Position numbers and translations under genes: made by a program
The notes under the pieces: generated by a model
The model's input: the letters and a program-made list of their open reading frames with translations, nothing else
Databases searched by the model: none
Told to the model about the DNA's origin: nothing
Assembly: GCA_030549905.1 (NCBI GenBank)
Contig: JAUQQK010000001.1
Coordinates: forward strand, 62,001 to 126,000
Source: Aquificota bacterium
Lineage (GTDB): Bacteria; Aquificota; Aquificia; Aquificales; Aquificaceae
DNA length: 64,000 nt
Direction of reading: 5' to 3'
Shown here: piece by piece, positions 29,018-48,675 of the stretch
Layout of the letters: every line of letters starts with the position of its first letter
Position numbering within the stretch: position 1 is the first letter of the stretch

Positions 29018-30090
29018 GCCGGGTCCTCCTCCCTGTAGTCTCCAAAAACCGCATAAGCCCTTGCCCTTGAGTTGCCATTGCATATATCTATGAAGGCACA
29101 GCTCCCGCACCTGCCCCTTAGCCGTCTCGGTCTCTGCCTGAGAAAGCTTAAAAGCCCGTTTCCTTCCCATATTCTCTGAAGCTCGTCCTGTCTGACGTTG
29201 CCAAGGCTATGGTTGAAGAAGGGGTCAGGCTTTACATTGCCCCTGTAGTCTATGTTCATGAGCCTTATGCCCGCCTGATTCCCTCCCCATAGCAGTAGCC
29301 TCTCGTAAAGCCTCGCAGAAAGGTCAGGATACCTCTTTGAAAACTCTCTGTATAGAAGCACTGCGTCCGCTTCGTTGTTGCCCGTTACCACATCAATAGC
29401 CTTTCCCCTTTCCACAAACTCAAAGGACTTTTCAATAATGAAGCTCACCCATTTTTTATACTCTTCCCTTTCAAGGTCTGAAAGCCTTCTGCCCCTGCCA
29501 GAATATACAAGATGTGAAATGTAAAGCTTTGGCACTCCTTCCCTTTCCACAAGTTCAAATATAAAAGGAAGACTTTTTGCGGTGGCGGGCGTTAGGGTAA
29601 ACCTCAGCCCCACCCTTATGCCCTCATCAAGGCAAGCCCTTATAGCCCTTAAAGATTCTTCAAAGGCACCCCTTCTGCCTCTAAAAAGGTCATGTACCTC
29701 AGGCTCCCCGTCTATGCTAATACCCACATAGTCAAAGACATCCTTGATTTCTCTTATATACTCCTTTACCAGAAGTCCATTGGTGGAAAGGTAGGTTTTA
29801 ATACCTGTGCCTTTCAGGAGCCTTGCAATTTTGAAAATGTCCTCCCGCAGGAGCGGCTCACCCCCAGAGAGTATGGCAAACCTTACCCCCACGGAAGGCA
29901 ATCTATGCACAAGGCTCACCACCTCCTCATGTGTAAGCTCCCCTTCCTCCCTTTTGCCTGCGGAAGAGTAGCAGTGTTTACAGGATAGGTTGCAGGCCTT
30001 TGTGAGGTTCCATATAAGAATGACACCCTCAAAGGCTCCTGGCTTCCTGCCCTCAAGGGTATCCCTTATGTATTCTGTTATCCTAAGCAT
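29005..30090 (-). CDS. nirJ: Radical SAM/SPASM protein NirJ (heme d1 biosynthesis)
   Basis: 361 aa. The radical-SAM cluster motif is CNLSCKHCY (preceded by WNLTKA), followed by AILSGGEPLLRED. The C-terminal SPASM-like region has Cys in GRCGSCAFIDICNG and DPACYL, with the NHSLGNV segment typical of NirJ/AhbC. NirJ converts didecarboxysiroheme by removing two propionates and forming oxo groups or precursors. Context between nirF and nirS favours NirJ over AhbC. ATGA-type coupling with the V4R gene (8-nt overlap). Confidence 0.9.
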   Translation of the reverse strand: MLRITEYIRDTLEGRKPGAFEGVILIWNLTKACNLSCKHCYSSAGKREEGELTHEEVVSLVHRLPSVGVRFAILSGGEPLLREDIFKIARLLKGTGIKTYLSTNGLLVKEYIREIKDVFDYVGISIDGEPEVHDLFRGRRGAFEESLRAIRACLDEGIRVGLRFTLTPATAKSLPFIFELVEREGVPKLYISHLVYSGRGRRLSDLEREEYKKWVSFIIEKSFEFVERGKAIDVVTGNNEADAVLLYREFSKRYPDLSARLYERLLLWGGNQAGIRLMNIDYRGNVKPDPFFNHSLGNVRQDELQRIWEGNGLLSFLRQRPRRLRGRCGSCAFIDICNGNSRARAYAVFGDYREEDPACYL

Positions 30091-30571
30091 GGTTCATCTC
30101 CACCACCACCTCGCATATATGGTCTCCGCTGGCGTTGCATTTGCTCTCATAAGTCCTTACCCTCCTCTTTACATGGCTTTCCACTATACCCGCCACAAAA
30201 CCAGCCTCAAAGTGGCATATGCGTTTTCCTATGTCTGGCATGCCAGAGCAGGTTATGCACTCGTCAAGAGCCACCACAAGCCTCTCTTCTGTAAGTTCCA
30301 CCGGCACAAGAAGACCTATCTTTGCATCCTTCACAAAATCCACAACCTTACCAAGGTAAGCCTCCAGGCTCTCATCCTTCAGCATAGCCCCAACCTCTTT
30401 CCCCAGCTCTCTTCCTGCCTTCTGGATAAGGGTGGAAGCCCCCTTATCTCCAACTATCTCTTCAAGGTATATGCCTGTAAAGACCCTGAAGGCTCTGAAC
30501 ACGAGCAGCGGCACCTCTTCACCAAGCTGTGGTCTTCTCACCTGAGATATGACCTCAATCCATCCAGCCAT
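30083..30571 (-). CDS. V4R-domain protein in the nir operon
   Basis: 162 aa. The C-terminal half matches the V4R (4-vinyl reductase) domain: VALDECITCSGMPDIGKRIC, HFEAGFVAGIVESHV and CNASGDHICEVVVE, with four conserved-type Cys. V4R domains bind small hydrophobic molecules and occur in XylR/DmpR sensors and in bacteriochlorophyll synthesis. Here it is a free-standing protein between NirN and NirJ. A role in handling a tetrapyrrole intermediate or in sensing is inference. It overlaps the NirN-like gene by 17 nt. Confidence 0.8.
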   Translation of the reverse strand: MAGWIEVISQVRRPQLGEEVPLLVFRAFRVFTGIYLEEIVGDKGASTLIQKAGRELGKEVGAMLKDESLEAYLGKVVDFVKDAKIGLLVPVELTEERLVVALDECITCSGMPDIGKRICHFEAGFVAGIVESHVKRRVRTYESKCNASGDHICEVVVEMNHA

Positions 30572-34664: not shown

Positions 34665-35916
34665 TGCCGTAGCTCCTCCATAAGGTGGCACCCGCATAGG
34701 CTAAGAAGAGAAGACCTCCGATGACCGCAAGCACACCTCCAAGCCCTACCATATTAAGGGCAAAAAGGACCATAACATCGCCCGCATATTCAAAGCCATA
34801 GGTCTTTCTGGGCGCACCCATCCTGCCAGCCAGGTAAAAACCAAACACAAGAAGGTTTATACCAAGACCGAAGAGGGGAGCCTGCCATTTAGCAAGTCTA
34901 TCCCAGACCACATGCCCCAGTTTCTCTTTAAGGAGGTAATAGGTAAAGCCCATAAAGGCTATGCTGACGCCTGATACCACGCCATGGTAGTGGGCGGGTA
35001 TCCTCAGGTCGCTCCGCATACCTCCGTAGGCTATGAAGGCACCCAGGTGGTATATACCCATGGAAAGCAGGAGGCTCAAAGTTGCTACACTAAAACCCTT
35101 TTTAAGGCTTTTTAGAATGTAAAGGGAATGGACGAGCAAAGGCACGCCCATACCTACTCCAAAGGAAAAGACCACAACCAGCCTAAACCTGTCTGAAAGA
35201 GGGTCTCCAAAGAAAAAGCCAGTAAGGAGCAATAGAGAGGTGTATAAAAGCAGGAGGTTTGATACCTTCAAAAGGGAGCTTTCAAGGCTTATACCCGAGC
35301 TTCTCTTTAAAAGCTCGTGCCATACCGCAAGCATAACGGAGGTATACATGAACTGTTGAAGGTGTCCGGGTATCCAGAAGAGCCTCTCAAAGTATAGCTT
35401 CATGCCACCCTCCTGGTGGGCTATAAAAAAGGAAGGCAGAAGGGAGAGGACGGTAAGAAGTCCAAGAAGGAGGGAAAGGGCATAAAGCTGTTTGGAAAGG
35501 GTGCCTTCCTTAAGCCCCCGTAAAGAGGACAGCCTGAGGAGGGCTTCCACAAAGAAGCCGAAAAAGAAAATGGAAAGACCGGCGTAAAACAGAGGGTGTG
35601 CTATGACGGGTATATAGTTGTTTAGATAAGGTTCTCCGTAGGGTAGAAGGCAGGAGAGGGAGAGGAGGAGCATGCCCAGTAGGGTGGCTGGAGGTGCAAC
35701 CCTTCCCTTCCTGCCTTCCTTATAATGCCAGTAGGCTAAGGTAAAGCTCATGAGCCATAGGGTTATGGAAAAGGTCACATGCCCTACAAGGAAGTGGTAG
35801 AAAAGCTCAGGAGACTTTAGTAAGGAGACTGCGGGCGTTCTTGTTAGAGCTATGAGAAGCCCAAAGAAGCCAGCAAGAAGAAGAGAAAAGAGGGAAAGGG
35901 AAAGGTAAAAGAGCAT
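34648..35916 (-). CDS. Degenerate heme-copper oxidase subunit I paralogue
   Basis: 422 aa with about 12 membrane segments. It aligns with the neighbouring NO-reductase subunit I: helix II-type H46 (GHVTFS), H185 in WIPGHLQQFMY, one His (H263) where subunit I has the CuB His pair, and AHYHGVVSG (H309, H311) in the heme helix. It thus keeps probable heme ligands but lacks a full CuB set. ATG 35916, overlapping the upstream stop as TGATG after GGGAGG, is preferred to GTG 35931. Its role, perhaps as a heme-carrying partner subunit, is unknown. Confidence 0.75.
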   Translation of the reverse strand: MLFYLSLSLFSLLLAGFFGLLIALTRTPAVSLLKSPELFYHFLVGHVTFSITLWLMSFTLAYWHYKEGRKGRVAPPATLLGMLLLSLSCLLPYGEPYLNNYIPVIAHPLFYAGLSIFFFGFFVEALLRLSSLRGLKEGTLSKQLYALSLLLGLLTVLSLLPSFFIAHQEGGMKLYFERLFWIPGHLQQFMYTSVMLAVWHELLKRSSGISLESSLLKVSNLLLLYTSLLLLTGFFFGDPLSDRFRLVVVFSFGVGMGVPLLVHSLYILKSLKKGFSVATLSLLLSMGIYHLGAFIAYGGMRSDLRIPAHYHGVVSGVSIAFMGFTYYLLKEKLGHVVWDRLAKWQAPLFGLGINLLVFGFYLAGRMGAPRKTYGFEYAGDVMVLFALNMVGLGGVLAVIGGLLFLAYAGATLWRSYGNGRTF

Positions 35917-37580
35917 CACCTTACCTCCCACATGGCTGCGAGCCAGCCCCAGTTGAGAAGGAGGAACACAAGGAACACGCCCATAAAGAGAAGGGTCAGG
36001 GTAAGGGTTCCGGGTGCCTCAAAGCCATGGTTTTCCTTTGGAGGTGGTGGTGGGGCTATCTGAAGCTGCATGTCCTGAGGTCCCCTTACGGGCTCTCCAA
36101 GAAAGACGGAATAGACCACTATGAGTATCCACATTAAAGCCCCCACAACCGCAGTTATACCTCCAAGGGCGAAGAGGACCCAGAAAAAGTCGGTGGCTGG
36201 ATTAAAGGTGTAAGTAAAGGGACCGCCCGAGAAGGTAATGTCATAATGCCTTCTTGGGACGCCAAAGGCTCCGAGTATATACATGGAAACCGCAAGCACC
36301 GCAATACCAAGTCCAAAGACCCAGGGCTGTAGCTTCGCAAGACTAAAGAAGGCTATCTTCTTTCTAAAGATTAAGGGTATCAGGTAGTAGGTGGCGCCCA
36401 TGAAGGCAAGGGTAGTTCCGCCCACAACCGTGCCTTTAAAGTGTCCGGGTATGGAAAGGGTGTTATGGACGATTATGTTGGTTTGCTCCATGCCGTTCAC
36501 CACACCCGTCACACCACCTATGAAGCCAAAGATGATTATGGAGAGAAACACCGCAGAGAAGGCAGGATTTCCCCATGGTGCGTTCTTGAGCCAGTCAAAA
36601 AGACCCTTTGTAAAACCCCTCCTTCTTTGTGCGGATTCAACCGCAGATGGCACCGCAAAAGCGTGTATCATGGATGCAAGCACCGCAATATACATGATGT
36701 AGCTCGTATTAAATACCTTCCAGGCTGGGCTCGGTCCTGGGTCCACAAGAAGGTGGTGTGCGGACGCCACATTTATACCTATTACATAGAAGACAAAGGC
36801 AAGCCTGCTAACCTTCTCGTTTATGGAAGTCCCACCCACCGTTAAGAAGGCTCCAAGATACCATACAGCTATCATGGCGGTCACATTTATCTGCTGTGAA
36901 GAGTGCCCCAAACCCCACCATACCAGCTTATAGACTCCTGCATCTATGCTCTTTATTATTCCCAGGGACCAGAGGAGGGTAGGTATGTATATTATTGCAC
37001 CCGACGCAAGGGTGAGGGTGGCTATTATGGCAGCCGCCACGAGTCCAAAGGTAAAAAGTGGAAGGGAGTCTCCATAAGTTCTTTCCTTCCTTGCAATCAG
37101 CAGGTTTGCAAAGAAAAGGAAAACACCTATCAAAGCCCCCACAGCAAAAAGGATGACGCCAAGGTAGTATAGAGGGTGTGCCTGAAGGGGTGCGTAGGAG
37201 GTCATAAGCACATCCGCATTGCCGGTCAGTATGGTGGCATTCACAAGCAAAAAGCCAAGAACCATAAGGATTAGGGCAAGCCAGCCAAACTTGGGGGAGG
37301 ACATGCGCGAGTTTAAAACCACCGTTGAGCCAAAGTATAGACCAACTATCTCAAAGAAGACAATCCAGAAGATGAGTGCGTTTAGCCCGTGAAGTGTAAG
37401 CACCCTGTAATACCAATCAACGGGCAAAAGATGCACCACCTGCCACCTTGTTAGCACAAGAAGCAAAGCGGCGATAACGCCTATGAGCAGAGAGACCACA
37501 GCCATAACAGCGTTTAGCTGTATGAGCCTCTCCGCCCTTGTATCAACCTTTAAACCTGTTATGTCGCATGTTCTAAACAT
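35916..37580 (-). CDS. Heme-copper nitric oxide reductase catalytic subunit (eNOR-like)
   Basis: 554 aa, about 13 membrane segments, closer to B-family oxidases than to cNOR. Visible ligands: H64 (LTLHGLN) for low-spin heme, H226 for CuB in GLGHSSQQ, H275/H276 (SAHHLL) for CuB, H380 (IPGHFK) for the high-spin heme. The tyrosine of the oxidase H-P-E-V-Y motif is Gln230, which argues against O2 reduction and fits the eNOR group as I recall it. K382 stands where oxidases have the second low-spin heme His. It lies between a CuA subunit II and nirS, so NO is the expected substrate. Confidence 0.8.
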   Translation of the reverse strand: MFRTCDITGLKVDTRAERLIQLNAVMAVVSLLIGVIAALLLVLTRWQVVHLLPVDWYYRVLTLHGLNALIFWIVFFEIVGLYFGSTVVLNSRMSSPKFGWLALILMVLGFLLVNATILTGNADVLMTSYAPLQAHPLYYLGVILFAVGALIGVFLFFANLLIARKERTYGDSLPLFTFGLVAAAIIATLTLASGAIIYIPTLLWSLGIIKSIDAGVYKLVWWGLGHSSQQINVTAMIAVWYLGAFLTVGGTSINEKVSRLAFVFYVIGINVASAHHLLVDPGPSPAWKVFNTSYIMYIAVLASMIHAFAVPSAVESAQRRRGFTKGLFDWLKNAPWGNPAFSAVFLSIIIFGFIGGVTGVVNGMEQTNIIVHNTLSIPGHFKGTVVGGTTLAFMGATYYLIPLIFRKKIAFFSLAKLQPWVFGLGIAVLAVSMYILGAFGVPRRHYDITFSGGPFTYTFNPATDFFWVLFALGGITAVVGALMWILIVVYSVFLGEPVRGPQDMQLQIAPPPPPKENHGFEAPGTLTLTLLFMGVFLVFLLLNWGWLAAMWEVR

Positions 37581-38124: not shown

Positions 38125-38304
38125 TCACTTACCTCCTAAAAGGCTTTGTTTGAGCTCTGCGGGTATGGGCGAGAGCCACGCAAGCTCTATGAGCCCCCAT
38201 ATGAGGTAGGAGACCGCATAGATGGTGACTCCCAAAAAGAGCAGGAACATAAAATCGTCCAGCACCAGCTGAAGGAAGGGTGTTTTTCTTTCCTTCTCCT
38301 CCAT
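38125..38304 (-). CDS. 59-aa single-helix subunit of the NO reductase
   Basis: A short gene beginning MEEKERKTPFLQLVLDDFMF with one central membrane helix (LLFLGVTIYAVSYLIWGLIE). A strong AAGGAGG lies 8 nt before ATG 38304, and the stop is 1 nt before the subunit II start. Its size, topology and place match the small subunit IIa of ba3-type B-family oxidases. It is the first gene of the nor-nir operon. Confidence 0.8.
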   Translation of the reverse strand: MEEKERKTPFLQLVLDDFMFLLFLGVTIYAVSYLIWGLIELAWLSPIPAELKQSLLGGK

Positions 38305-38319
38305 GACTACACCTCCTTG

Positions 38320-38333
38320 TAAGTATTTACTTA
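38320..38333. promoter_or_regulatory. Hairpin/operator TAAGTATTTACTTA before the NO-reductase operon
   Basis: A perfect 5-4-5 inverted repeat, TAAGT-N4-ACTTA, ending next to the AGGAGG ribosome binding site of the 59-aa gene and falling at the predicted transcript start. A closely matching 7-4-7 copy holds the same place before the divergent fusion gene. Confidence 0.5.
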
Positions 38334-38438: not shown

Positions 38439-38456
38439 TGTAAGTAATCACTTACA
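38439..38456. promoter_or_regulatory. Hairpin/operator with TGTAAGT-N4-ACTTACA before the fusion gene
   Basis: A perfect 7-4-7 inverted repeat whose last base overlaps the AGGAGG ribosome binding site of the gene at 38,468. A -10-like TATATT (38429-38434) would start the transcript at about the first base of the repeat, so the mRNA could begin with this stem-loop. The -35 region is weak, suggesting activator dependence. Confidence 0.55.
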
Positions 38457-38467
38457 GGAGGTTCCTC

Positions 38468-40408
38468 ATGTATATGGCAGGCATTCAGCCCCTTTATACG
38501 GGCTTTCAGAGGCTATCCTACACCTTAAGCAGGTTCTTCTCCTCAAGGCTAAACCCCCTTTATCACCTTGGGGCTATAGCCATCTTCCTTCTCATCATAG
38601 ATGCCCTATCGGGCATTTACCTTTTTCTTTTTTACAGCATAGACCCTCAAACCTCCTACCAGTCGGTGGAAAAAATATCCGGGAGCCTCTTAGGCAGCAT
38701 AATGAGGGGCATACACCGCTACTCTTCAGACGCCCTGATTCTTACAACCCTTGCCCATATGGTGCACGTGATAATAACGGACAGGTTTCGCATGTTCAGG
38801 TGGGTGGCGTGGGTCACGGGCGTGGCAACCCTTCTTATATTCTTAGCCATAGGTGTCTCCGGCTACATACTGGTCTGGGACGAAAGGGCACAGCTTACGG
38901 GTCTTTTAACCGCCAAGTTTTTCTCATTCCTTCCCGTTTTTGGCGATGCCCTTATGAGCGCCTTCCTCGGTAGCGACATAAAGTATCTTGGGGGTCTTTT
39001 CAGAATACTTCTCTTTGCTCACATTGCCCTCACCATACTCATAGTCTTTACCCTATGGGTGCATGTGATGAGAAACGCAAGACCGAGGCTCATACCCCCA
39101 AGGTTTCTGTATATAACCATAACCCTTCTGATAGTGCTTCTTTCTGTCCTCTTCCCCGCAAAGAGCGACCCACCAGCTTACATAAGCAGGCTACCCTTTG
39201 AGATGAGCGTGGACTGGTTTTACCTCTTTGGTTATCCTCTCCTTAAATACATACCCATGTCCGCTAACTGGCTGCTTTTTCTTGGCTTTTTCACCTTCCT
39301 TTTTGTCTTCCCCTGGCTCATAAAGGGCAGGAGAAACCCACCAGCCCGCATAGACTTTGAAAGATGCACGGGTTGCGAGCAGTGCTACATAGACTGTCCC
39401 TACGAAGCCATAGTTATGAAGGAGCATGAAGGAAAGAAGAAGGCGGTTCTAAACGAGGAAAAATGTGCGGGCTGTGGCATATGCGTGGGCTCCTGCAGTA
39501 CCCTAGTGATAGACATACCCACCTTCCCCGTTGAAGAGGTTATGAATAAAATAAGAGAGGAAAAGCCAAGGTATGTAGCCTTCAGGTGTCCCTTTAGCGC
39601 TGTACCACCAGAAAGAAAGGAACTTCTTACCTTTACGCTGCCCTGCGCCGGTGCCTTAAACACACATTATGTAGAGGACATATTAAGCATGGGGGTGGAG
39701 GGTGTGGTGGTTGTCTCCTGCGAGTATGAGGACTGCTACTTCAGGGAAGGCAACAAGTGGCTTGAGGAGAGGTATGAAAGGAAAAGAAGACCCATACTGA
39801 AGAAGAAGGTGATGGGCGGCAGGGTGCTTATACTTGAAGCTCCTTATGTGAGGTCCATAGAGAAGGAGGTGGATGAGTTTATCTCCTCTACAAAGGAGGG
39901 TCAGGAAGTAAAGCTTATCACCTCTGGAAGGCTAAACTACGCAGTAGCTTCAGGAGTGCTTGCCCTCCCCATATTCCTCTTTTACCCCCTGACTACCCAC
40001 AAGATAGCCTTTTATCCAACGCACAGCTCAGCTGTGGTCCTCAGCTTTAAATACAGGTCATCACCTGTGAAGGAGACAAAATCAGAAAGGATGGGGAGTC
40101 TAAAACATATGCAGGCTAAGTCTGCCGTGATAAAGGAGAGGTCTCCGGTAAAGATAGAGCTTTATGAAAACGGTAAGCTTTTAAGCTCAAAGGTTTTTAA
40201 CCCTAGGGGTATAAGGAAGGATGCCTCCATATTTGTTTATGAAGAGTTTTTCCTAACGCCGGGCGAGAAGGTCTTAAAAGTAAGGCTTATGGAGACCGCA
40301 CATCCAGAGAAGGTAAAAGAGCTTGAGCTCAATACAAGCCTTAGGACAAAGGAAAGCCTTCTTATAACCTACGATGAAACTAAGGGCGGTTTTGTGGCGT
40401 GGAGGTGA
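38468..40408 (+). CDS. Cytochrome b / 2x[4Fe-4S] ferredoxin / MvhD(FlpD)-domain fusion
   Basis: 646 aa. Residues 1-285 form a cytochrome b6-like core with both bis-His heme pairs in H-x13-H spacing (H83, H97, H185, H199), and VDWFY at 249-253 near where bc complexes have PEWY. Residues 296-345 hold two ferredoxin motifs: C300, C303, C306, C310 and C333, C336, C339, C343. Residues 366-435 resemble MvhD/FlpD (Cys at 374, 393, 418, 423; SCEYEDCYFREGNKW), the [2Fe-2S] electron-transfer subunit of Hdr/hydrogenase complexes. A membrane helix (about 489-508) and a beta-rich domain end it. It divergently faces the NO-reductase operon and converges on the nos operon. A quinol-linked electron donor for denitrification is inferred. 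Confidence 0.85.
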   Translation: MYMAGIQPLYTGFQRLSYTLSRFFSSRLNPLYHLGAIAIFLLIIDALSGIYLFLFYSIDPQTSYQSVEKISGSLLGSIMRGIHRYSSDALILTTLAHMVHVIITDRFRMFRWVAWVTGVATLLIFLAIGVSGYILVWDERAQLTGLLTAKFFSFLPVFGDALMSAFLGSDIKYLGGLFRILLFAHIALTILIVFTLWVHVMRNARPRLIPPRFLYITITLLIVLLSVLFPAKSDPPAYISRLPFEMSVDWFYLFGYPLLKYIPMSANWLLFLGFFTFLFVFPWLIKGRRNPPARIDFERCTGCEQCYIDCPYEAIVMKEHEGKKKAVLNEEKCAGCGICVGSCSTLVIDIPTFPVEEVMNKIREEKPRYVAFRCPFSAVPPERKELLTFTLPCAGALNTHYVEDILSMGVEGVVVVSCEYEDCYFREGNKWLEERYERKRRPILKKKVMGGRVLILEAPYVRSIEKEVDEFISSTKEGQEVKLITSGRLNYAVASGVLALPIFLFYPLTTHKIAFYPTHSSAVVLSFKYRSSPVKETKSERMGSLKHMQAKSAVIKERSPVKIELYENGKLLSSKVFNPRGIRKDASIFVYEEFFLTPGEKVLKVRLMETAHPEKVKELELNTSLRTKESLLITYDETKGGFVAWR

Positions 40409-40715
40409 AGTTCAATATCCATTTCGCCATGGCCCGCGCCTCCTCCTCCTCAAGCCTCTGGGGAGGCATGCATTCATACCTGCCCTTCCACTTATTGCAT
40501 GAGCCCTCCCTTATGCTCCTTATAAGTTTTTCTTCCGCATCCTTTACCCTTCTATACCTTTCAGCCACCTCCAAGAAGGAAGGACCCACAAGGAACCTTC
40601 TGGTATCATGACAGTCAGTACACCCTCTAATCCTGAACAATTCTTTCACATTGACGACCTCCTCTTTTTTACTCTCACAGGAAAAAAGAACAAAAAGAGC
40701 TATGAACCACCACAT
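40380..40715 (-). CDS. Small c-type cytochrome lipoprotein
   Basis: 111 aa. Lipoprotein signal MWWFIALFVLFSC (Cys13), heme motif CTDCH (32-36) and probable axial Met83 in YECMPPQ, the layout of class I cytochrome c551-type carriers. It is the last gene of the nos operon, 10 nt after nosY, and overlaps the convergent fusion gene by 29 nt. Probable role: membrane-tethered electron carrier to NosZ or the NO reductase. Confidence 0.87.
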   Translation of the reverse strand: MWWFIALFVLFSCESKKEEVVNVKELFRIRGCTDCHDTRRFLVGPSFLEVAERYRRVKDAEEKLIRSIREGSCNKWKGRYECMPPQRLEEEEARAMAKWILNFTSTPQNRP

Positions 40716-47050: not shown

Positions 47051-47545
47051 ATGGTAGAAGGTCTTGAAGCTGGAAAGAGGGTGGAGTTTGAAGGGCTTGG
47101 GCTTTCCCTTATACAGGAAACCCTTATGCCCGCCGCTGTAGGCTACGGAAGGCTTTACATACTTTCAGAGGGTTCTGGCAGGTATATACTGGGTCAAAGG
47201 TTTGGGAAGGTTGAGGCACCCTGCGTTTTTCATGTGGAGCCTTCTCTTCTCTTTGGCTTCATGCCTGAGGAAAAGGTAAGCCTGTATGAAATAGCATTGG
47301 GTAAAGAAGGAGAATGCGGGGGAGAGGTAATTGACTTAAGACCGCTTGAGCATGGAGCCAGACATCCCCTCGTCATGAAAAGGTTTTCAGAGCTAAAGAC
47401 AGATGAATGCTTTTACATCATAAACGACCATGACCCGCTCCCCCTATACTTTCAAATGGCTATGAGCTTTCCGAAAAAGGTAGGATGGGTGTATGTGGAG
47501 TTTAGAGATAACTTTTGGAAGATAAAAATCAGGAGGCTGTCATGA
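47051..47545 (+). CDS. DUF2249-domain protein with extra N-terminal domain
   Basis: 164 aa. The C-terminal ~75 residues match DUF2249 (VIDLRPLEHGARHPLVMKRF, YIINDHDPLPLYFQM, then WKIKIRRLS), a small TusA-like fold common in denitrifier and nitrosative-stress clusters. The N-terminal ~90 residues (RVEFEGLGLSLIQETLMP, GRYILGQRFGKVEAPCVFHV) are beta-rich and not recognised. There is no Shine-Dalgarno sequence; the gene appears leaderless and heads a five-gene operon. Confidence 0.8.
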   Translation: MVEGLEAGKRVEFEGLGLSLIQETLMPAAVGYGRLYILSEGSGRYILGQRFGKVEAPCVFHVEPSLLFGFMPEEKVSLYEIALGKEGECGGEVIDLRPLEHGARHPLVMKRFSELKTDECFYIINDHDPLPLYFQMAMSFPKKVGWVYVEFRDNFWKIKIRRLS

Positions 47546-47953: not shown

Positions 47954-48202
47954 ATGAAGGAAGTGCTTGAAGCCTTAAGGGAAGTTATAGACCCGCATAC
48001 GGGTCTTGACATTGTTAGCATGAACATGGTAAAAAGCATAGAGGAGGTTTCAAAAGGAAAAATAAAGGTAGTTATAAAGCCCACAAGTCCCTTCTGTCCG
48101 GTGGGTAGCTTTCTTTTGCAGGCGGTGAAGGAAAAGGTGGAAGCCCTCGGTTATGAGGCACAGGTGGAGCTTGAAGGCTATCTTTTTGGAGGGGAGCCAT
48201 GA
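47954..48202 (+). CDS. DUF59/MIP18-family protein (PaaD/SufT-like)
   Basis: 82 aa: VLEALREVIDPHTGLDIVSM at the start and IKPTSPFCPVGSFL with a conserved-type Cys, typical of DUF59 proteins that help iron-sulfur cluster assembly or repair. In an operon with DUF2249 and DUF1858 modules it may belong to a nitrosative-damage repair set. It starts 1 nt after the cytochrome gene. Confidence 0.9.
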   Translation: MKEVLEALREVIDPHTGLDIVSMNMVKSIEEVSKGKIKVVIKPTSPFCPVGSFLLQAVKEKVEALGYEAQVELEGYLFGGEP

Positions 48203-48675
48203 GGCTTGATGTAAGGAACCTTGAACCACCTCAGCCCATGATAAAAGTGGCGCAGGCTCTGGAAAGTTTAAAGGAAGGTGAGGTGCTTGAAGTGCTTGGC
48301 TCAAGACCTTTTTCCCACCTACTGCCAAGGCTTGAAGAGCTTGGTTATGCTTACGAACTCAAGGAAGTGGAGGAGGGGTATCTTCTAAGGATATGGAAAA
48401 GGGGAACAGAGGGAAGGCTTGAGGAAGTGCCTGAGTGTTCAAAGGAGCTGGAATTTACCATTGATGAAAACACGAATGTGGGCGAGCTTTTAAAACGCGT
48501 GCCAGAAGCCCTTGATGTACTTATAAAATATGGCTTTACACCCCTCAAGAACCCAATCCTCAGAAAGATACTGCCCCATACGGTCACCTTAGGTCAGGCT
48601 AAAAGGATAAGGAGGCTTTCTGACGAAAAGTTCCAAGAACTTTTAAAGGAGCTAAGAAGGCTCACAGGACAATGA
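48199..48675 (+). CDS. DUF2249-DUF1858 two-domain protein
   Basis: 158 aa. Residues 1-70 are DUF2249 (RLDVRNLEPPQPMIKVAQAL). Residues about 90-150 match DUF1858 (ScdA N-terminal type): TIDENTNVGELLKRVPEALD, LIKYGFTPLKNPILRKILPH. DUF1858 domains occur at the front of RIC/ScdA di-iron proteins that repair iron-sulfur clusters after NO stress; here the hemerythrin part is missing. It overlaps its neighbours by 4 nt on both sides. Confidence 0.85.
   Translation: MRLDVRNLEPPQPMIKVAQALESLKEGEVLEVLGSRPFSHLLPRLEELGYAYELKEVEEGYLLRIWKRGTEGRLEEVPECSKELEFTIDENTNVGELLKRVPEALDVLIKYGFTPLKNPILRKILPHTVTLGQAKRIRRLSDEKFQELLKELRRLTGQ

Follow-up and report, generated by a model that had tools for sequence, protein, structure and literature searches.

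In Aquificaceae from hot springs, a single gene fuses a cytochrome b, a dicluster ferredoxin and an FlpD/MvhD domain to a further membrane helix and a beta domain, and its product is apparently a conserved, so far undescribed accessory of some eNORs. These are little-studied NO reductases, predicted to pump protons, whose operons are commonly annotated as cytochrome oxidases. From sequence and genomic context, we give roughly even odds (about 0.5) to the reading that the fusion is a dedicated accessory of one eNOR branch, a transmembrane electron conduit that would serve either catalysis or the assembly of copper/heme sites. The literature searched yielded no description of an enzyme of this kind, in agreement with an earlier sequence-only reading, which knew of no characterized enzyme with this domain combination next to nor/nir/nos genes. 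The gene was analyzed within a 64-kb window, the whole stretch of DNA under study, and all coordinates are positions in that window. It is a single intact open reading frame with an ATG start and an AGGAGG ribosome site directly 5' of it, laid out as follows:

38468..40408 (+), cytochrome b - 2x[4Fe-4S] ferredoxin - FlpD - TM - beta-domain fusion protein, 646 aa
38528..39328 (+), cytochrome b part (residues 21-287), helices A-D, which hold the two pairs of heme His, and helices E and F
39344..39505 (+), dicluster ferredoxin domain, Cys 300/303/306/310 and 333/336/339/343
39572..39892 (+), FlpD/MvhD domain, Cys 374, 393, 418 and 423
39941..39997 (+), seventh membrane helix (residues 492-510), from hydropathy
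39998..40405 (+), beta-sandwich domain, predicted periplasmic; its own gene in Defluviimonas

The domains proposed from the sequence alone were recovered by profile searches. Residues 21-200 match Pfam Cytochrome_B (PF00033; 1.2e-15, 58.3 bits against a cut-off of 27.2) and contain the two H-x13-H heme pairs, H83/H97 and H185/H199; residues 293-345, with the eight Cys of two [4Fe-4S] motifs, match Fer4 and the dicluster Fer4_7 at about 1e-9, above the curated cut-off; and residues 389-472 match FlpD (PF02662; 7.5e-10, 39.3 bits against a cut-off of 22.3). An NCBIfam match (E 3.6e-20) places residues 293-476 on the C-terminal half of HdrA2, which consists of ferredoxin and FlpD. The order of ferredoxin then FlpD and the four Cys are shared with that half of HdrA2 and with MvhD/FlpD, whereas the flavin domain of HdrA2 is missing and its place at the front is taken by a cytochrome b. 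Residues 205-290, which the earlier reader overlooked, are cytochrome b helices E and F. In a profile alignment, residues 28-294 run alongside the genome's own bc1 cytochrome b across both of these helices, and V248-D-W-F251 falls on its PEWY motif (D249-W250-F251 on E-W-Y). The Qo motif of the homologues reads VDWF or LDWF, with the carboxylate and Trp retained and the Pro and Tyr replaced. The fusion has in common with b6f/bc1 cytochrome b the bis-His heme pairs, helices A-F and a carboxylate-Trp motif in the ef loop, and differs from it in that its operon lacks a Rieske protein, c1 or f, PEWY has become VDWF, and helix F enters cytoplasmic Fe-S domains.

Hydropathy and charge predict an N-terminus on the N side, cytochrome b helices in a 4+2 arrangement and a cytoplasmic Fe-S/FlpD portion, from which helix 492-510 would lead into a periplasmic C-terminal beta domain. 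The presence of this helix and beta domain in the same 646-aa chain, also part of the original description, is borne out by hydropathy and by an AlphaFold model of the beta domain alone, a confident beta sandwich with a pLDDT of 83. The AlphaFold model of the whole chain is poor (pLDDT 56.7, from a shallow alignment of 8 close homologues), yet still retrieves bc1/b6f cytochrome b in Foldseek. For the beta domain, Foldseek returned weak, mixed beta-sandwich matches only, and a PDB profile search gave no useful match.

Of 136 Aquificota genomes, 21 have a full-length homologue, distributed over three genera of one family at 51-88% identity, with one of the 21 interrupted by a contig end; the distribution is patchy inside genus g1, where 4 of 14 genomes carry the gene. 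A distant homologue (34% identity, E 1.6e-76) lies on a plasmid of the alphaproteobacterium Defluviimonas, in which the C-terminal helix and beta domain form a separate gene (P0003) that matches fusion residues 537-642 weakly (E 3.6e-4). Because uninterrupted full-length homologues exist across the family (54-88% identity) and in another phylum (34%), the fusion is not a product of chance. Between the Aquificaceae proteins and the Defluviimonas homologue, the heme His H83/H97 and H185/H199, the DWF motif, the eight ferredoxin Cys (300, 303, 306, 310, 333, 336, 339 and 343) and the FlpD Cys 374, 393, 418 and 423 are all invariant. Loss of the FlpD-type Cys in relatives had been named beforehand as evidence against a functional module; all four are kept in both phyla. 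Homologues mostly in organisms without denitrification genes had been named likewise, and within Aquificota none occurs in a non-denitrifier.

The full-profile search covered Aquificota, one plasmid collection and about 400 genomes from each of two further phyla; Pseudomonadota, Chloroflexota, Bacteroidota and others were covered through plasmids only. Neither the 397 genomes from the phylum to which a mislabelled Bathyarchaeota MAG is assigned, where the two halves are common separately, nor 399 genomes in the phylum of Clostridium sp. N3C contained the full fusion. A scan of genome contigs with the single sequence returned close relatives, all Aquificaceae by sequence, and one Clostridium ferredoxin match, while viral contigs gave no match to the fusion. 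In the MAG labelled Bathyarchaeota (L032/G137), the contig with nos genes and the fusion is of Aquificaceae type, with 75% similarity to the window and 91% for nosZ, and is evidently contamination.

Divergent from the fusion gene, the window encodes an operon with these members:

38125..38304 (-), small subunit of eNOR with one helix (59 aa); similar small ORFs lie 5' of subunit II in L069-L072
37593..38123 (-), subunit II of eNOR, a cupredoxin that carries the CuA motif CNEFCGVGHHTM
35916..37580 (-), subunit I of eNOR, in which Gln replaces the cross-linked Tyr (GHSSQQ; criterion from PMC8756737)
34648..35931 (-), second heme-copper-oxidase-like subunit without the CuB His-His pair, 427 aa
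33864..34697 (-), SCO protein with CSSACP copper motif

According to the published criterion, eNORs are recognized by a Gln that replaces the cross-linked Tyr of subunit I (PMC8756737). We identify the operon as eNOR because the GHSSQQ Gln of subunit I agrees with this criterion and a CuA motif is present in subunit II; on these residues the encoded enzyme is an eNOR, with predicted NO reductase activity. The 427-aa oxidase-like protein keeps His of the heme-ligand type and is found 3' of subunit I in nos-bearing loci, not in g6 loci. At the low-spin heme ligand position, the second His of helix X (GHFHG) is Lys (GHFKG) in the eNORs of Aquificaceae and Thermus and His in Defluviimonas. The haloarchaeal plasmid matches to the NOR that were looked at in detail have Tyr (GHPVVY) and belong to the ba3-type oxidases rather than the eNORs.

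A query with this eNOR on the 136 Aquificota genomes recovered 20, all among the 21 fusion carriers; in the 21st carrier (G079), the contig breaks off next to the fusion, after subunit II and the first part of subunit I. Co-occurrence in the same 21 of 136 genomes gives a Fisher value of 4e-25, uncorrected for phylogeny, and no case of an eNOR of this type without the fusion was found among the 136. The link to denitrification that had been proposed at the outset is supported, specifically for eNOR. Wherever the flank is long enough, the fusion and the eNOR operon point away from each other, and the eNOR operon goes on with SCO and nirS. On the Defluviimonas plasmid the genes follow one another as small ORF, subunit II, subunit I, cyoE, SCO, cytochrome b-Fd-FlpD, TM/beta protein and hemerythrin. 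In g6, a hemerythrin and an NnrS-like membrane protein lie 3' of the fusion (L033 12023-14089; L037; L054), and a convergent Rrf2-family regulator (NsrR-like, three Cys) is nearby. The eNORs of Thermus and Thermomicrobium (45-49% identity) have no fusion gene in the same neighborhood, so eNORs as a class can probably do without the fusion.

Two palindromes lie in the region of the divergent promoter:

38441..38454 (unstranded), palindrome TAAGTAATCACTTA, directly upstream of the fusion gene's ribosome site
38320..38333 (unstranded), palindrome TAAGTATTTACTTA, directly upstream of the divergent eNOR operon, next to its ribosome site

The form TAAGT-N4-ACTTA has 2 exact copies in the 64 kb, against 0.07 expected, and they flank the divergent promoter. 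Related elements with up to 2 mismatches and a spacer of 4 or 8 stand 5' of the fusion in all loci examined, and related palindromic elements are also present near nirS in some loci. The fusion and eNOR probably share this palindromic element as a putative operator and candidate site of NO response. Together with the hemerythrin, NnrS-like and Rrf2 neighbors, the palindromes look like an NO-responsive regulon, in which the regulator would presumably be paired with the operator.

Given its topology and ligands, an electron wire between cytoplasm and periplasm is the natural reading of the protein. A cytoplasmic donor would dock on the FlpD/ferredoxin portion and supply the electrons; a partner gene for FlpD was looked for in the fusion neighborhood and none was found, including a hydrogenase, formate dehydrogenase or HdrBC. 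Electrons would then most likely run from the FlpD domain, presumably of [2Fe-2S] type, through two putative [4Fe-4S] clusters and from bH to bL toward the periplasmic face, where the beta domain would sit. Their exit may be a quinone at the degenerate Qo site or a periplasmic acceptor on the eNOR side (subunit II or SCO), and they would be used for NO turnover or for maturation of the copper/heme sites. Electron supply is favored by RME88945.1, an ORF listed without discussion in Table A3 of PMC8756737 with cytochrome b6 (PRK03735), ferredoxin-like and FlpD domains: compared by this listing alone, it has the same domain set in one ORF and adds a C1 c-type cytochrome domain. Against a dedicated accessory count the genome's bc1, which could already feed eNOR via cytochrome c, the lack of an FlpD partner gene nearby and of a second FlpD in the genome, and the Thermus and Thermomicrobium eNORs without a fusion gene in the neighborhood.

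The SCO and cyoE genes of the operon speak instead for assembly, and a more specific version of that role is possible, at rather less than even chances: the fusion could be a reductase through which electrons from the cytoplasm cross the membrane and reduce periplasmic Cu(II), or the thiols of SCO, so that the CuA and CuB sites of eNOR can be built, a task that CcoG performs for cbb3 oxidase. The fusion sits with SCO, and in Defluviimonas cyoE and SCO stand between eNOR and the fusion. CcoG likewise has two [4Fe-4S] clusters and an Ig-like domain in the periplasm, and its gene neighbors an oxidase cluster (PMC7558416); CcoG/FixG and the fusion are both membrane proteins with a periplasmic beta domain encoded beside a heme-copper enzyme. 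However, the fusion has a heme b membrane part and FlpD, FixG_C (PF11614) has no match in the fusion or the genome, and the beta domain has neither a clear structural relative nor a fully conserved metal-ligand set between the two phyla. Copper reduction, moreover, needs neither an FlpD domain nor a Qo-like motif.

The same NO-response neighbors in g6, namely hemerythrin, NnrS-like and Rrf2 proteins, would fit a cytoplasmic-reductant:quinone oxidoreductase that maintains redox balance under NO stress and is merely co-regulated with eNOR. We consider this unlikely, in that the one-to-one pairing with eNOR in the 136 genomes and the linkage in a second phylum are tighter than a general stress role predicts.

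Quite improbable is a bifurcation of quinol at the xDWF motif, with one electron leaving toward eNOR on the periplasmic face while its partner passes via bL-bH to the Fe-S/FlpD portion, yielding low-potential reductant with which CO2 would be fixed. NO is a very strong electron acceptor, and the carboxylate at the PEWY position is kept in both phyla, as this scheme would want. In anammox, a related idea concerns Rieske/cytochrome b complexes and their coupling to NAD(P)H (PMC12954380). The operon nevertheless has no Rieske protein or other one-electron acceptor at the Qo site, and none was found among the identified neighbors of the fusion gene; a flavin-binding (HdrA FAD) domain is likewise absent from the chain and from those neighbors. 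Without flavin domain and Rieske protein bifurcation is unlikely, and Defluviimonas has no known need for such a CO2-fixation reductant. The sequence-only reading had suggested bifurcation-like energy coupling as a possibility, which the missing HdrA flavin domain and the lack of any second FlpD elsewhere in the genome speak against. We give no more credence to the wider form of the scheme, in which a Rieske-less cytochrome b would split electrons at a membrane quinol site between eNOR outside and FlpD/ferredoxin inside, so that NO reduction would power CO2 fixation.

A part in N2O respiration in place of NosG/NosH/NosC was suggested by the earlier reader, and nos genes do follow the fusion tail-to-tail in g1/g7. 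It is the least probable role, since in three g6 genomes the fusion occurs although no clade II nosZ passes the cut-off, ten relatives carry nosZ but no fusion, and the shared putative operator stands on the eNOR side. The counts come from 61 relatives, in which 5 carry the fusion with clade II nosZ, 3 (g6) the fusion only and 10 nosZ only, nosZ being scored as present only above the family cut-off (the g6 genome G026 has a weaker NosZ-like match, 501 bits). Of the two co-occurrences that had been proposed for testing, that with eNOR holds in all 21 carriers, while that with clade II nosZ holds in some genomes only: compared with eNOR and with nosZ, the fusion follows eNOR in its distribution, and a NosZ partnership is largely ruled out by the distribution among relatives. 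Unlike donors of the NosR/NosH/NapH type, the fusion is not tied to nosZ. Replacement of bc1, also proposed earlier, is ruled out by the genome's own complete bc1 operon, which encodes a Rieske protein, a PEWY-bearing cytochrome b and cytochrome c1 side by side. At the end of the nos cluster, a small c-type cytochrome gene (40380-40715, -) overlaps the fusion gene tail-to-tail at its 3' end. Two DUF2249 proteins are encoded beside the nos cluster (47051-47545 and 48199-48675, +), the second with TusA and DUF1858 matches, and the nir cluster contains a V4R-domain protein (30083-30571, -) that resembles the C-terminal part of MsvR and is possibly a redox sensor.

If the fusion is indeed a transmembrane conduit dedicated to eNOR, it would constitute a new link from cytoplasmic reductant to a denitrification enzyme, by way of a bc-type cytochrome b joined to Hdr/FlpD-type wiring. 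The fusion gene can serve as a marker for eNOR operons, and as a conserved partner it bears on the question of how eNOR is fed or built.
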